A DNA stretch of 64,000 nt from Rhodanobacter thiooxydans (GCF_030291135.1 NZ_CP127409.1:2604001-2668000); one strand, 5' to 3'. Positions 24,190 to 45,035 are shown, numbered from the stretch's first letter. Numbers and translations are program-made. The notes: generated by a model from the sequence alone, not told the origin.

Positions 24190-24338
24190 TTTACCCCCTC
24201 CTGACCTCCCCCTGCACGCAGGGGGAGGAACTGAACGTGGGACCTCTACACGCAGGGGTAGGAACCGAACGTGGAGCCTCTGTGCGCGAGAAACTGAACA
24301 TGGAGCCTCTGTGCGCAAGGGGAGGAGCCGAGCCTCAC
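24190..24338. repeat. REP palindrome decaying into tandem repeats
   Basis: A REP hairpin (CCTCCCCCTGCACGCAGGGG at about 24205-24224) is followed by four imperfect units of 29-34 bases at 24211-24242, 24243-24276, 24277-24305 and 24306-24338, sharing CCTCTGTGCGC...CTGAACGTGGAG. The remaining 24339-24489 before pilB shows nothing I can assign beyond its promoter region. Confidence 0.65.
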
Positions 24339-38919: not shown

Positions 38920-40194
38920 ATGCCGCACCGGCACTCCCAACGCATCGGTCCGTTCGCGCTGACGCGCTCGCTCGCCTGGCTGCGGATCTGCGCCATCGCG
39001 GGCCAGAGCACCGCCGTGCTGGTGTGCGCCTGGGGAATGCACCTGGGCATTCCGCTGCTGCCGCTGCTGCTCGGCATCGGGCTGCTCGGGGTGTTCTCGG
39101 TGTTCGCCGCATGGCGGCTGACCCAGCCGTGGCCGCTGCGCGAGTGGGAGGCGGTCGGCCACATCGCCTTCGACACGCTGGTGCTCGGCTACCTGCTGTA
39201 CTTCACCGGCGGCGCCAGCAACCCGTTCATCACCCTGCTGCTGGTGCCGATCGCGCTCAGCGCGGCGGCGCTGTCGGGTCGGGCGGTGCTGGCGGTGGCC
39301 GCGCTGGCCGGTGTCGCCTATGTGATCCTGCTGTACTCGTACGTGCCGCTGCCGCTGCCGATGCCCGCCGGTTCGCCCAGCCGCTTTACCCTGCACGTGG
39401 TCGGCATGGGCGTGAACTTCGTGATCATGGCGCTGCTGCTGAGTTTCTTCATCAGCCGGCTGGCCCGTGTACTGCGGCTGCAACAGCTCGAGGTGCAGCG
39501 GGTGCGCGAGCGAGCGCTGCGCGACGAGGGCATCCTGGCGATCGCCACCCAGGCCGCCGGCGCCGCGCACGAACTCAACACGCCGCTGTCGACCATGCGC
39601 ACCCTGCTGCCCGAACTGCGCCGCGAGCACGCCGGCGATGCGACGCTGGCCGAAGACCTGGCGCTGCTGGAAGGCCAGGTCGACCGCTGCCGCACGATCC
39701 TGCGCGAGATGGTCGCCTTCGGCAAGGCGCAACTGTCGCAGGAGCCGGAACGGCTCACAGTGGCTGCCTTCATCCACGGCTGCCTGGAGCGCTTCCAGCT
39801 GCTGCGGCCCGAGGCGGAACTGGCCACGACGCTGGACGAGGACATCGTGCATACCGTGTTGCGCACTCCGCCGGGCCTGCGCCATGCGCTGCTCAACCTG
39901 CTCAACAACGCCGCCGACGCCTCGGCCGCCAATCACTCGCACGCGGTGGCACTGCAGGTCTCGCGCGACGGCGAATGGCTGCAGCTGAACGTGCGCGACC
40001 ATGGCCCGGGTTTCGCCACCGACAGCGAACTCACCCTGCTCGGCTACTCGCAGAAGCAGACCGGGCTGGGCATCGGCCTGGCCCTGGCCGAAGCCACCGC
40101 CGAACGGCTCAACGGCGAACTGATCGCGCGCAATGCCGAACACGGCGCCGAAGTGTGCCTGCGCCTGCCGTTGGCGGTGATCGCCGAAAAATAG
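38920..40194 (+). CDS. regB: redox-sensing histidine kinase, RegB/PrrB type
   Basis: 424 residues: six N-terminal membrane helices and a cytoplasmic kinase. The loop motif GGASNPF (97-103) is the ubiquinone-binding signature of RegB. The phosphoacceptor is H217 in AAGAAHELNTPLSTM. C257 in VDRCRTIL lies exactly 40 residues after it, as redox-active C265 does after H225 in Rhodobacter RegB. N box LLNLLNNAADAS and G boxes DHGPGF and QTGLGIGLALA are intact. It probably signals respiratory-chain redox state to RegA. Confidence 0.93.
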   Translation: MPHRHSQRIGPFALTRSLAWLRICAIAGQSTAVLVCAWGMHLGIPLLPLLLGIGLLGVFSVFAAWRLTQPWPLREWEAVGHIAFDTLVLGYLLYFTGGASNPFITLLLVPIALSAAALSGRAVLAVAALAGVAYVILLYSYVPLPLPMPAGSPSRFTLHVVGMGVNFVIMALLLSFFISRLARVLRLQQLEVQRVRERALRDEGILAIATQAAGAAHELNTPLSTMRTLLPELRREHAGDATLAEDLALLEGQVDRCRTILREMVAFGKAQLSQEPERLTVAAFIHGCLERFQLLRPEAELATTLDEDIVHTVLRTPPGLRHALLNLLNNAADASAANHSHAVALQVSRDGEWLQLNVRDHGPGFATDSELTLLGYSQKQTGLGIGLALAEATAERLNGELIARNAEHGAEVCLRLPLAVIAEK

Positions 40195-40266: not shown

Positions 40267-40851
40267 ATGACCGAGTTGCCCCATGCCGTCACGGCGCGCC
40301 CGCTGCTGCTGGTCGACGACGACACCACCTTCCTGCGCGTGCTGGCACGTGCGCTCGGCTCGCGCGGTTTCGAGGTGATCACCGCCAGCACCTTCGACGA
40401 GGCGCGTGCGCTGACGCGCCGGCACAACCCGCGCTACTGCGTGCTCGACTTGAAACTGGGCGAGGAGAACGGCCTGCGCCTGATCCCCGAGCTGCACACC
40501 CTGGTGCCGGACCTGCGCGTACTGCTGCTGACCGGCTACGCCTCGATTGCCACCGCGGTGGAGGCGATCAAGCGCGGCGCCCACGATTACCTGGCCAAGC
40601 CGGTCGACGCCGACGCCGTGGTGCGCGCCCTGCTCGACGGCGACAACGAGATCGACGACAACGACCTGCCGGACGCTCCCGAACAACCACTGGCGCTGCG
40701 TCGGCTGGAGTGGGAGCACATCCAGCGCGTGCTCACCGAATGCGACGGCAACATTTCCGAGACCGCCCGCCGCCTCGGCATGCACCGCCGCACGCTGCAG
40801 CGCAAATTGAGCAAGCACCCGGTACGCGAACGCCCTGACCGCGAAGAGTGA
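40267..40851 (+). CDS. regA: response regulator, RegA/PrrA type
   Basis: 194 residues. Receiver domain with LLLVDDDTTFLRVLARAL, phosphorylated D61 in CVLDLKLGEENGL, LLTGYASIATAVEAI and the lysine in DYLAKPVDADA. A short linker leads to a Fis-type helix-turn-helix, ECDGNISETARRLGMHRRTL, near-identical to RegA/ActR recognition helices. With RegB it should control respiration, carbon and nitrogen genes in response to oxygen. 72 bases after regB, same direction. Confidence 0.93.
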   Translation: MTELPHAVTARPLLLVDDDTTFLRVLARALGSRGFEVITASTFDEARALTRRHNPRYCVLDLKLGEENGLRLIPELHTLVPDLRVLLLTGYASIATAVEAIKRGAHDYLAKPVDADAVVRALLDGDNEIDDNDLPDAPEQPLALRRLEWEHIQRVLTECDGNISETARRLGMHRRTLQRKLSKHPVRERPDREE

Positions 40852-41005
40852 GCTGGCGCCACGTATAGAAGCGCATCCCGGATCGGGCACCTTTTGGCAT
40901 GTCCGCGCATCCCATCGGCGAACCCCGCTGCGACAACGCGCCATCTGTCGCGCGCATGGCAGCGGACTATCCTTGCAACCCTAGATCCCCATCCAGAGTG
41001 TCGTC

Positions 41006-43264
41006 TTGAACACCCTACCGCTCGGCCTTTGTGCAGTCGCACTCGCCGTGTCCGCCAGCCCGCTGCTGGCCGCCGATGAACCCGCTCCCGCCACCACCAC
41101 GCTCGCCCCGGTCTCGGTGCACGCCAGCGACACTATGGTGATGGAAACGCCCAGCGTGCAGGTACGCATCCGGCGGCAGAAACTGCAGCAGCAGAACCTC
41201 ACCGAAAGCGCCGATGCACTGAAGTACGCGCCGAACATGCAAGTGCGCAAGCGCTACATCGGCGATCCCAACGCGGTGGTCAGCGGCCGCAACGCCGGCA
41301 CCCTGCAGAGCGCGCGCAGCCTGGTCTACGCCGACGGCCTGCTGCTCTCCAACCTGATGACCAACGGCTGGGACGGCGCGCCGCGCTGGGGCATGGTGGC
41401 GCCCGAGGAAATCGGTGCGGTCGACATCCTGTACGGCCCCTATTCCGCGCTTTATCCGGGCAACTCGCTGGGCAGCACCGTGCTGATCCACACCGTGCTG
41501 CCGCAGCAGTTCACCGCCAGCGCGAGCACCCAGTTCTTCAGCCAGGACTACCATGACGCGTATGGCGCCGGCGGCCACTACAGCGGCCATCAGGCCGCCG
41601 CCACGCTGGGCGACAAGCAGGGGCGCTTCAGCTGGCTGCTGGAACTCAGCCGGCTCGACAACCATGGCCAGCCGATGCAATACGCCACCGCCAAGGCCGG
41701 CGGTAATGCGGCCGCGGCGGTGCCGGTCAGCGGCGCCGTGCTGGACCACAACCCGAACGGCTCGCCGCGACTGGTGTACGGCGCCAACAGCATCGAACAC
41801 ACGGTGCAGGACCAGGCCAAGCTGAAGGTCGGCGTGGATATCACCGATCACGTCGCCGCGCTGTTCACCGTGGGCTGGTGGCACAACCGCGCCGAGGACC
41901 GCACCCGCAGCCTGATCCGCGATGCCGCCGGCCACCCGGTCGCCGCCGGCACGATCAGCGCCGCCGGGCAGACCTGGACGCTGCCCGCCAGCGGTCTGGC
42001 ACCCTCCTCGGCCAGCGACACCCACCTGCTGTACGGCGTCGAGCTGAACGGCCACCTCGACAACGGCTGGCGCTGGACCGCGGTGGCCAGCCACTACGAC
42101 TTCCTGCGCTCGCAGGCTGCCACGGCCAACCTGGCCGAACCCGGCAGGCCCAGCGGCGGACCCGGCACGATCGCCGACAAGGCCGGCTCCGGCTGGAACA
42201 CGCTCGACCTGCGCAGTTCCGGACCGCTCGGCGAGCGCCACATGCTCTACGCCGGCATGCACGGCGACCGCTACGTGCTGGACAGCCGCGTGCGCAACGC
42301 CAGCAGCTGGCTCGGCGATGCCGACGGTGCACAGGTCAGCGCGTTTGCTGGCCGCACGCAGACCCGCGCACTGTACCTGCAGGACGTGTGGAGCTTCGCC
42401 GACGCCTGGGCGCTGACCCTCGGCGGCCGGCTGGAGCAATGGCGCGCCTACGGCGGCCTGCGCGCGAATGCGGTCGACACCCTGCGTTATGCCGATCGCC
42501 GACGCACCGACTTCTCGCCCAAGGCGGCGCTGAGCTGGGATTTCGCCGACGACTGGGAGCTGCGCCTGGCCTACGGCAAGGCCGTGCGTTACCCGACAGT
42601 GACCGAGCTGTTCCAGGGCAGCCTGTCGGCCAACGCGATCGTCAACAACAACCCCGCGCTGAAACCCGAGACCGACGAGTCCACCGACCTCACCCTGACC
42701 CGCCACCTGGAGCACGGCCACTGGCGAGTCTCGCTGTACCAGGACCGCATCGCCGACTCGCTGTACTCGCAGACCGACATCACCGTCAGCCCCACCGTCA
42801 CCAGCGTGCAGAACATCGACAGGATGCGCAGCCGCGGCATCGAGGGCGAGCTTGCCCTCACCGACCTCTGGCTGGACGGCCTCGACCTGCAGACCAGCCT
42901 CGCCCTCAATGACGCGAAGACGCTGCAGGATCACCAGTACCCGCTGGCCAACGGCAAGACCTTCCCGCGCATGCCGAAAGTCCGCGCCAGCGTGTTCGCC
43001 GATTACCGTTTCGCACCGCAGTGGGACGCCTCGCTCGGCATCCGCCACTCCGGCCGCCAGTACGGCACGCTGGACAACAGCGACTACATGGATACTTACG
43101 GCGCGGTCAGCCGCTTCACCGTGGCCGACGCGAAACTGCGCTGGAAGTTCGCACCGGGCTGGACCGCCGCGCTCGGCGTCGACAACCTCACCAACGAGCA
43201 GTACTGGGTCTACCATCCCTACGCCGGCCGCACCTGGTTCGGCGAGCTGCGCTGGGAGCTGTGA
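41006..43264 (+). CDS. TonB-dependent outer-membrane receptor
   Basis: 752 residues from TTG 41006, with a signal peptide ending ASPLLAADE. The plug domain runs LTESADALKYAPNMQVRKRY, VSGRNAGTLQSARSLVYADG and GAVDILYGPYSALYPGNSLG. The barrel ends with FGELRWEL, an aromatic-rich terminal strand. FSPKAALSWDFADDWELRLA and GKAVRYPTVTELFQGSL are typical of siderophore/metal receptors. No TonB box or ligand can be assigned with certainty. The two genes downstream suggest a metal or metallophore cargo. Confidence 0.92.
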   Translation: MNTLPLGLCAVALAVSASPLLAADEPAPATTTLAPVSVHASDTMVMETPSVQVRIRRQKLQQQNLTESADALKYAPNMQVRKRYIGDPNAVVSGRNAGTLQSARSLVYADGLLLSNLMTNGWDGAPRWGMVAPEEIGAVDILYGPYSALYPGNSLGSTVLIHTVLPQQFTASASTQFFSQDYHDAYGAGGHYSGHQAAATLGDKQGRFSWLLELSRLDNHGQPMQYATAKAGGNAAAAVPVSGAVLDHNPNGSPRLVYGANSIEHTVQDQAKLKVGVDITDHVAALFTVGWWHNRAEDRTRSLIRDAAGHPVAAGTISAAGQTWTLPASGLAPSSASDTHLLYGVELNGHLDNGWRWTAVASHYDFLRSQAATANLAEPGRPSGGPGTIADKAGSGWNTLDLRSSGPLGERHMLYAGMHGDRYVLDSRVRNASSWLGDADGAQVSAFAGRTQTRALYLQDVWSFADAWALTLGGRLEQWRAYGGLRANAVDTLRYADRRRTDFSPKAALSWDFADDWELRLAYGKAVRYPTVTELFQGSLSANAIVNNNPALKPETDESTDLTLTRHLEHGHWRVSLYQDRIADSLYSQTDITVSPTVTSVQNIDRMRSRGIEGELALTDLWLDGLDLQTSLALNDAKTLQDHQYPLANGKTFPRMPKVRASVFADYRFAPQWDASLGIRHSGRQYGTLDNSDYMDTYGAVSRFTVADAKLRWKFAPGWTAALGVDNLTNEQYWVYHPYAGRTWFGELRWEL

Positions 43265-43286
43265 AAAGCTGCCAAGCCCTGCGCGC

Positions 43287-43395
43287 ACTACTCCCTCCCC
43301 TGCTCGCAGGGGAGGGTTGGGGTGGGGTCGCTCTTGATCGCAAAGTCAAAAGCTTCACCCCCTCCCAACCTCCCCCTGCCTGCAGGGGGAGGAGC
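43287..43395. repeat. inverted pair of REP palindromes
   Basis: Hairpin one, CTCCCTCCCCTGC/GCAGGGGAGGG at about 43290-43315, is followed by TTGGGGTGGGGTCGCTCTTG. Hairpin two, CCTCCCCCTGC/GCAGGGGGAGG at about 43369-43391, is preceded by AAAAGCTTCACCCCCTCCCA. The pair fills the gap between the receptor gene and the propeller gene. Confidence 0.8.
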
Positions 43396-43413
43396 GAAGC
43401 CCGAGGAACACTC

Positions 43414-44580
43414 ATGCGCCACCTGCTGTTTACCCTGTTCTGCCTGCTGTCACCCGCGCTGCTGGCGCACGACGGCATGCGCATGGAGATGCCGAAAGGC
43501 CCCGAGCTGGGCGCCAGCGCGGCGTTCGACAGCCACGGCCGGCTGTGGCTGGTGGATGCAGCCGATGACCACGTGCGGCTGCGCCATTCCGACGACGACG
43601 GCCGCACGCTGAGCGCACCGGTCGAGGTGAACGCCACGGCCGAACGAATCTACGCCGAGGGCGAGAACCGCCCGAAGATCGCGTTCGGGCCACACGACGA
43701 AATCTACGTGAGCTGGTCGCAACCGCGCGCCGCACCGTGGACCGGCTTCGTACGTTTCGCCCGTTCGACCGATCGCGGCGAACACTTCAGCGCCCCATTG
43801 ACCGTGCACCACGACCGCGCCGAGATCACCCACCGCTTTGATGCACTGGCGGTGGATGGCAAGGGCCGCATCGTGATCGCCTGGATCGACAAGCGCGACC
43901 TGATCGCCGCCACCGCCGCCGGCAAGCCGTACCTGGGCGCCGCGATCTACTACAGCTGGTCGGACGACGGCGGCAAGAGCTTCGTGCCCGAACGCAAGCT
44001 GGTCGACCAGAGCTGCGAATGCTGCCGCATCGCGCTGGCGCGCATGCCCGATGGCGAAGTCGCCGCGTTCTTCCGCGGCATCTACGGCGACAACATCCGC
44101 GACCACGCGTATGCCGTGTTGCGTACGGACGGCCAGGCCAGCCGGGTCGCGCGCGCCACCTTCAGCGACTGGCAGATCGCCGGCTGCCCGCACCACGGGC
44201 CCGGCCTGGCGATCGGCACCGACGGCATCCGCCACGCCGTGTGGTACGAGGCGAAGGGCCAGCCCACGATCCGGTACGGCCAGCTCGATCCCGGCCATGC
44301 ACCGAAACATGCGCTGGCGATCGCCGGTAGCGGCGCCAGCCACGCCGACGTGGCCGTGCACGGGCGCACCGTGTGGGTGGTGTGGAACCAGGTCGGTGCC
44401 GACGGCTACACGCTGATGCTGCGCCGCTCGACCGACGATGGCGCACACTTCGACGCGCCCCGCGACATCTCCCATAGCAGCGGTGCGGTGGGTTCGCCGC
44501 AGCTGCTGCTGAAACAGGGCCGTGCGTTCGTGGCCTGGAACACCGCCGCCGGCTTCCGCCTGGTCGAGGTACCACGATGA
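43414..44580 (+). CDS. secreted Asp-box beta-propeller protein with CxCC and CPHH motifs
   Basis: 388 residues with signal peptide (MRHLLFTLFCLLSPALLA, mature start HDGMRMEM). Sialidase-type Asp boxes recur: RHSDDDGRTLS, RSTDRGEHFS, SWSDDGGKSFV and RSTDDGAHFD, predicting a propeller. The catalytic arginine triad of sialidases is not evident. Instead QSCECCRIA (C201, C203, C204) and GCPHHGPG (C258, H260, H261) look like soft-metal ligands. GAGGA precedes ATG 43414. It overlaps the TlpA-like gene by ATGA and follows a TonB receptor. Annotation as a sialidase would be misleading; metal binding is my inference. Confidence 0.8.
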   Translation: MRHLLFTLFCLLSPALLAHDGMRMEMPKGPELGASAAFDSHGRLWLVDAADDHVRLRHSDDDGRTLSAPVEVNATAERIYAEGENRPKIAFGPHDEIYVSWSQPRAAPWTGFVRFARSTDRGEHFSAPLTVHHDRAEITHRFDALAVDGKGRIVIAWIDKRDLIAATAAGKPYLGAAIYYSWSDDGGKSFVPERKLVDQSCECCRIALARMPDGEVAAFFRGIYGDNIRDHAYAVLRTDGQASRVARATFSDWQIAGCPHHGPGLAIGTDGIRHAVWYEAKGQPTIRYGQLDPGHAPKHALAIAGSGASHADVAVHGRTVWVVWNQVGADGYTLMLRRSTDDGAHFDAPRDISHSSGAVGSPQLLLKQGRAFVAWNTAAGFRLVEVPR

Positions 44581-45035
44581 AGCGCCTGCTGCTCGCTTTC
44601 GCCCTGTGGCTGCCGGCGCTGGCCTGTGCCGGCACGCTGCAGCCGCTGGCCGCCACCGATGTTGCCGCCCTGCTGCAGCCGCCGGCGCACGGCACGCGCA
44701 TCCTCGCGCTGTGGTCGCTCGACTGCGCCTACTGCGAGCCGAACCTCGAAGCGCTCGCGACATTGCAGCGTGCCCATCCGCACGAGCTTGAACTGGTCAC
44801 CGTGACGACCGACAGCATTGCGTTGCGCACGGCGATCGAGGCGCGCCTGCACAGCATGAAGATGGACGTCTATCCCGCGCGCGCCTACGCCGAGGCCTCA
44901 CCCGAACGCACCAACTTCCTGCTCGACCCGAACTGGGGCGGCGAGACACCGCGGGTGCTGGTGATCCGCGCCGACGGCAGCCGCCTGGGCATCAGCGGCG
45001 CGCTGACGCCGGCGCAGCTGCACAAAATTTTGTAG
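44577..45035 (+). CDS. TlpA-like periplasmic thiol-disulfide protein
   Basis: 152 residues with signal peptide (LLLAFALWLPALACA). A thioredoxin-fold active site C50-A-Y-C53 lies in LALWSLDCAYCEPNLEAL, and the cis-proline loop in GGETPRVLVIRADGS. Shorter than ResA/CcmG relatives. Coupled by ATGA to the CxCC propeller gene, so the likely partner is that cysteine-rich protein, whose thiols it could keep reduced for metal loading. Transcription probably ends at the repeat near 45034-45056, before converging genes. Confidence 0.82.
   Translation: MKRLLLAFALWLPALACAGTLQPLAATDVAALLQPPAHGTRILALWSLDCAYCEPNLEALATLQRAHPHELELVTVTTDSIALRTAIEARLHSMKMDVYPARAYAEASPERTNFLLDPNWGGETPRVLVIRADGSRLGISGALTPAQLHKIL

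Follow-up and report, generated by a model that had tools for sequence, protein, structure and literature searches.

What is the function of a periplasmic protein with a sialidase-like propeller fold when it is encoded together with a TonB-dependent receptor and a TlpA-like thioredoxin-fold protein? This question is raised by a three-gene cassette in Rhodanobacter thiooxydans, located in a window of 64,000 nucleotides (NZ_CP127409.1:2604001-2668000; positions are counted from the window start) in a genome of 3.5 Mb that consists of a single contig. We argue here that the cassette is very probably a copper-uptake operon, and we favor, with somewhat less confidence, the whole explanation that it is a copper-acquisition unit of the CruR/TonB-transporter/PCuAC type that works by a mechanism based on the propeller and the TlpA-like protein. 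The three genes are arranged head to tail on the plus strand at positions 41006-45035, with the following features:

41006-43264, plus strand: TonB-dependent receptor (plug and beta-barrel), first gene of the cassette, with a TTG start (Pfam Plug, 1.2e-12; TonB_dep_Rec_b-barrel, 4.6e-51)
43414-44580, plus strand: periplasmic propeller with a signal peptide, predicted to be six-bladed with a sialidase-like fold (BNR_2, 35.1 bits against a cut-off of 31.4; AlphaFold2)
44014-44025, plus strand: CECC motif, propeller residues 201-204, immediately preceding strand 1 of a blade
44185-44196, plus strand: CPHH motif, propeller residues 258-261, at the equivalent position of the next blade
44577-45035, plus strand: TlpA/ResA-like periplasmic thioredoxin-fold protein (CAYC; profile matches; structure model)
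44724-44735, plus strand: CAYC active-site motif, residues 50-53 of the TlpA-like protein

The stop codon of the propeller gene and the start codon of the TlpA-like gene overlap in an ATGA (44577-44580), and the context of the TTG start of the receptor gene at 41006 is matched in related loci. A preliminary description of the locus had listed these open reading frames (ORFs) and the ATGA coupling, had placed CECC and CPHH at the same residues and had noted the CAYC motif; our reading of the ORFs bore out all of this, along with gene order and strand. What had been observed there is thus confirmed, while its interpretation, a metal-acquisition cassette in which the propeller holds the metal, is supported in part.

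Evidence for a role in copper uptake comes from the neighboring genes in other genomes. A scan of genome contigs, from which 80 of 347 relatives were kept, recovered relatives from the Rhodanobacteraceae, Ralstonia, Cupriavidus, Paraburkholderia, Pollutimonas and others, and a wider sample covered 399 genomes of the phylum. The genes in these loci (numbered L) were called by codon log-odds, with the exception of two loci that are low in guanine and cytosine (low-GC): L168, which was read from the list of ORFs, and L170, which was read by homology search only. Lineage labels (alphaproteobacterial-type, betaproteobacterial-type) were inferred from kinship and flanking genes. Outside the Rhodanobacteraceae, a DUF2946/CruR ORF is located directly upstream of the receptor gene in about 35 of 42 loci. 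Most of the upstream DUF2946 ORFs contain a CXXC motif and a C-terminal RAPP motif, the defining features of CruR, which in Bordetella is the copper-responsive ORF at the head of the operon for a copper transporter (PMC9426467); the candidate ORF upstream at L124 was not recognized by the Pfam DUF2946 model. Within the Rhodanobacteraceae, diverged receptor homologs (36-43% identity) have a DUF2946 gene within approximately 260 bases upstream in all 14 genomes examined, each of which carries just one to three such genes. The gene order is cruR-receptor-propeller-tlpA-PCuAC in the alphaproteobacterial-type loci, in some cases followed by YcnI-CopCD, and likewise cruR-receptor-propeller-tlpA-PCuAC in the low-GC betaproteobacterial-type loci. 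In total, PCuAC was identified downstream in nine loci and YcnI with CopC-CopD in three (Pfam E-values of 1e-21 to 1e-46 for those tested), all of them recognized copper proteins (Pfam descriptions; PMC8424229; PMC9426467). Since the unit recurs beside genes for copper sensing and copper carrying, an undescribed version of bacterial copper uptake is the most likely reading. The linkage to CruR/DUF2946, PCuAC, YcnI and CopC-CopD lends good support to the metal-acquisition cassette of the preliminary description and provides independent support for copper, which had been a guess there.

Genes for ExbB and ExbD adjoin the cassette at L119:2965-4799 (together with a TonB-like gene), L130 and L164:2977-4807, which suggests a dedicated energizing complex.

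The resemblance extends to operons of known function. In pcuABCDE, the gene for the TonB receptor is followed by PCuAC, YcnI-like and CopC-CopD-like genes, an order that resembles loci L165-L167, and the genes for receptor and PCuAC are not known to be separated there by genes for a propeller and a TlpA-like protein. This copper operon belongs to Bradyrhizobium japonicum and is named in PMC8424229. The cruR-crtA(bfrG)-crpH operon of Bordetella pertussis is likewise a copper operon (PMC9426467, PMC12914433, PMC13038864), and it shares with the homologous operons studied here a DUF2946/CruR ORF with CXXC and RAPP at the head of a TonB-dependent transporter operon. PCuAC and ExbBD/TonB occur in some operons of both the Bordetella kind and the propeller kind. 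Unlike in B. pertussis, the copy in the window has no cruR, CrtA is no more than a distant relative of the receptor, and the cysteine-containing propeller and the TlpA-like protein take the place of PepSY_TM. In crtA operons, a PepSY_TM protein is usually encoded after the transporter (PMC12914433). In none of the 93 propeller loci was a PepSY_TM gene found on the same strand at a distance of up to 6 kb, yet cruR-receptor-PepSY_TM operons with a receptor of the same family are present at L137:2574-6972 and L138:2776-7211, in two Rhodanobacter genomes that have no propeller match. These two cases suggest that the propeller-TlpA pair stands in for PepSY_TM and may do the job that this protein does elsewhere.

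We compared the propeller sequences to identify which residues are under constraint. The mature protein contains exactly four cysteines, all within CECC and CPHH (the other cysteine, residue 10, is in the signal peptide). Among 250 genomes of the order, near homologs were identified in 27 other genomes (36-92% identity), along with many more distant homologs of near 28% identity. C201, C203, C204 and C258, along with Pro259, are invariant in 28 of 28 near homologs and in 21 distant ones (approximately 28% identity), and also in a 13-sequence alignment that extends down to 26% identity. Exactly four cysteines past residue 60 were counted in 78 of 79 propeller homologs; judged from these sequences, the four-cysteine pattern exceeds chance. 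The residues that follow the CP vary among the 79 homologs (CPHH in 58, CPEH in nine, CPHQ in six, CPEQ in four and CPNH in one), and a distant clade has CPVN in place of CPHH. Because the cysteines are invariant while the histidines vary, the fixed element is formed by the thiols and does not include the HH pair. Thus, CxCC and the C-P of CPHH proved invariant, the two histidines that the preliminary description had included did not, and the loss of cysteines beside TonB receptors, which it had named as contrary evidence, was not seen. The mature propeller begins with a histidine- and methionine-containing segment (AHDGMRMEM), and N-termini rich in these residues are usual among the homologs (e.g., HDMHGM, HEGHDHGAM).

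At approximately 28% identity, loci L029-L050 contain sialidase-like propellers that form a large family marked by CDCC and CPVNGP, for which a receptor or thioredoxin neighbor is not fixed. The order receptor, propeller, thioredoxin is kept at L029 (28% identity, CPCC), and distant propellers are located close to a multicopper oxidase gene at L033 and to an RND efflux gene at L031.

The AlphaFold2 model of the propeller (mean predicted local distance difference test score, pLDDT, 88; predicted template modelling score 0.87) was read as six-bladed, and places CECC and CPHH each just ahead of the first strand of adjacent blades. The equivalent position is occupied by NRPK (85-88), THRF (139-142) and ASHAD (308-312) in other blades, where the conserved H140 and H310 share this pre-strand position. 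Since their positions before strand 1 are equivalent and the blades adjacent, CECC and CPHH probably face one site, and in the model the blade-entry loops would converge on a single face of the propeller.

The TlpA-like gene is located next to the propeller gene in 93 of the 93 loci with adequate flanking sequence. In Luteibacter, the receptor gene is gone from the operon (a homolog with 42% identity is found elsewhere in the genome), and the propeller-TlpA pair follows directly after the genes for a kinase-regulator pair. Profile searches matched the TlpA-like protein to PDB 3raz (5e-8) and to TlpA (1jfu, 3e-6), and its structure model (pLDDT 91) has a thioredoxin fold with StoA, ResA and TlpA as the closest folds. 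It shares with these reductases the thioredoxin fold, a signal peptide and an invariant CxxC and proline (C50, C53 and P125 are invariant among its homologs), and differs from them in that it is short, falls below the Pfam cut-off in the copy from the window and has a dedicated propeller neighbor; its role as a reductase is predicted. Two receptor-propeller-TlpA cassettes are present in Rhodanobacter fulvus Jip2 (L073, L084).

In the mechanism that we propose, the receptor would take a copper chelate, the presumed substrate, across the outer membrane. The cluster of three cysteines and a fourth (and possibly histidine) at the blade-entry loops of the propeller would strip copper from the chelate, or reduce Cu(II) to Cu(I), and hold it, after which the TlpA-like partner would re-reduce the oxidized thiols so that the site could bind again. 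Chaperones of the PCuAC/Sco kind would then receive the Cu(I) for the assembly of oxidases, with the propeller-TlpA pair filling the place that PepSY_TM has in the crtA operons, the better known copper operons. Copper holding by the propeller and reduction of its cysteines by the TlpA-like protein are inferred from the invariance of the cysteines and the pairing in all 93 loci. On balance, the propeller probably handles copper through its thiols, and recycling by the TlpA-like protein is plausible. A more tentative idea, which we regard as possible rather than probable, is that the propeller is a periplasmic copper reductase or copper-release factor of a new class, that is, a sialidase fold with its active-site mouth rebuilt as a Cys4/His cluster, fed with electrons by the TlpA-like protein and standing in for PepSY_TM.

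Several points weigh against this interpretation. Judged by its sequence, the receptor is neither OprC (TIGR01778, 29.5 bits against a cut-off of 472) nor clearly CrtA, and these identities were rejected. In comparisons with solved structures, PhuR gave the best match, while CrtA (9RVQ) matched weakly (E-value 9e-7), in an alignment confined to the C-terminal part. On the receptor profile, PhuR, YncD and CirA all outscore 9RVQ. General siderophore and heme models are the top scorers, and the receptor scored below every NCBIfam cut-off shown. No DUF2946/CruR was found in the genome that contains the window, so that copper control is not supported for the R. thiooxydans strain itself. The exchange of PepSY_TM for the propeller is seen at two loci only, and some DUF2946/CutF-like proteins are encoded beside genes that concern nickel, cobalt or zinc (PMC9973294, PMC4176598). 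For the proteins of the cassette, our literature search turned up no data on binding, reduction or growth. It also found no relevant paper that links a sialidase, BNR or propeller protein with DUF2946, copper and TonB, and the propeller is unmentioned in the papers found, supplementary tables and subscription journals being outside the search. Finally, the four cysteines could be structural disulfides in the oxidizing periplasm.

The last point leads to the alternative that survives best, although we consider it unlikely. It accepts the copper operon and takes the cysteines of the propeller as structural or redox-sensing disulfides, with the propeller as a scaffold or a receptor-side partner and the TlpA-like protein serving Sco, CoxB or the like. 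There is a precedent in the published system in which TlpA reduces ScoI and CoxB before metallation, as cited in PMC13038864, and in several loci the gene that immediately follows the TlpA-like gene encodes PCuAC. However, the TlpA-like gene stays with the propeller gene even in loci that lack PCuAC and in Luteibacter, where the receptor gene has left the operon, and CxCC plus CP, invariant at 26% identity, is unlikely to be purely structural.

It is less likely still that the operon serves a soft or transition metal other than copper (zinc, nickel, cobalt), or a metal siderophore, for example a ferric complex. The link of some DUF2946 relatives to other metals, the high scores of siderophore and heme models on the receptor, and the ability of Cys/His sites to bind zinc would fit this idea, but the copper proteins PCuAC, YcnI and CopC-CopD share the operon in several lineages, and the DUF2946 proteins in these operons are mostly of the RAPP-containing, TonB-transporter-linked CruR kind.

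The weakest alternative is a true sialidase or glycan-binding protein beside a sugar receptor. The protein is a bladed propeller with Asp-box repeats like GH33 sialidases and PLL lectins, Foldseek searches with the model returned both groups, and R86, R141 and R205 are conserved in the near clade. The propeller differs from these proteins in that the template modelling scores reach only approximately 0.5-0.6, no tyrosine is invariant among 41 propeller sequences, and a cysteine cluster at the blade-entry loops is found in a copper-gene context. The three arginines, which were not superposed on the sialidase Arg triad, are lost in the distant clade that keeps the four cysteines. Single-sequence searches gave no relatives among solved structures, profile searches gave short Asp-box matches only, and of the sialidase models only the broad BNR_2 passed its cut-off. 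Because no tyrosine is invariant and the arginines are lost where the cysteines are kept, a sialidase function is unsupported, short of formal exclusion, and with copper genes rather than sugar genes as the recurrent neighbors we regard it as very improbable.

Returning to copper uptake, control of the cassette in Rhodanobacter may involve other elements than CruR. The following features are located upstream of and within the cassette:

38920-40194, plus strand: RegB/PrrB-like sensor histidine kinase, candidate regulator (HisKA, HATPase_c, PilS-like transmembrane domain), a conserved neighbor in the Rhodanobacteraceae
40267-40851, plus strand: RegA/PrrA-like response regulator with a Fis-type helix-turn-helix, candidate regulator (Response_reg, HTH_8), a conserved neighbor in the Rhodanobacteraceae
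40930-40951, plus strand: inverted repeat GCGACA-N10-TGTCGC in the receptor leader, conserved in related loci, with one matching site genome-wide
43265-43413, plus strand: strong RNA hairpin with a REP-like palindrome in the gap between the receptor and propeller genes (-84 kcal/mol, z -6)

The inverted repeat resembles a binding site for a regulator, which may have replaced CruR control in Rhodanobacter, and we would guess that the RegB/RegA-like pair controls the cassette. A scan for promoter and terminator consensus sequences found nothing. The hairpin could tune expression downstream, and a second copy of the core of its REP-like palindrome is located in the window at 24206-24227.

Bacterial copper import, chelate release and periplasmic reduction are poorly known. 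The unit described here is found again in several hundred genomes (a single scan gave 347 relatives) and is a compact candidate for a periplasmic copper-uptake step in soil and plant-associated bacteria. As the propeller is likely to be annotated as a sialidase, correction of this annotation would avert wrong inferences about sialic-acid metabolism.

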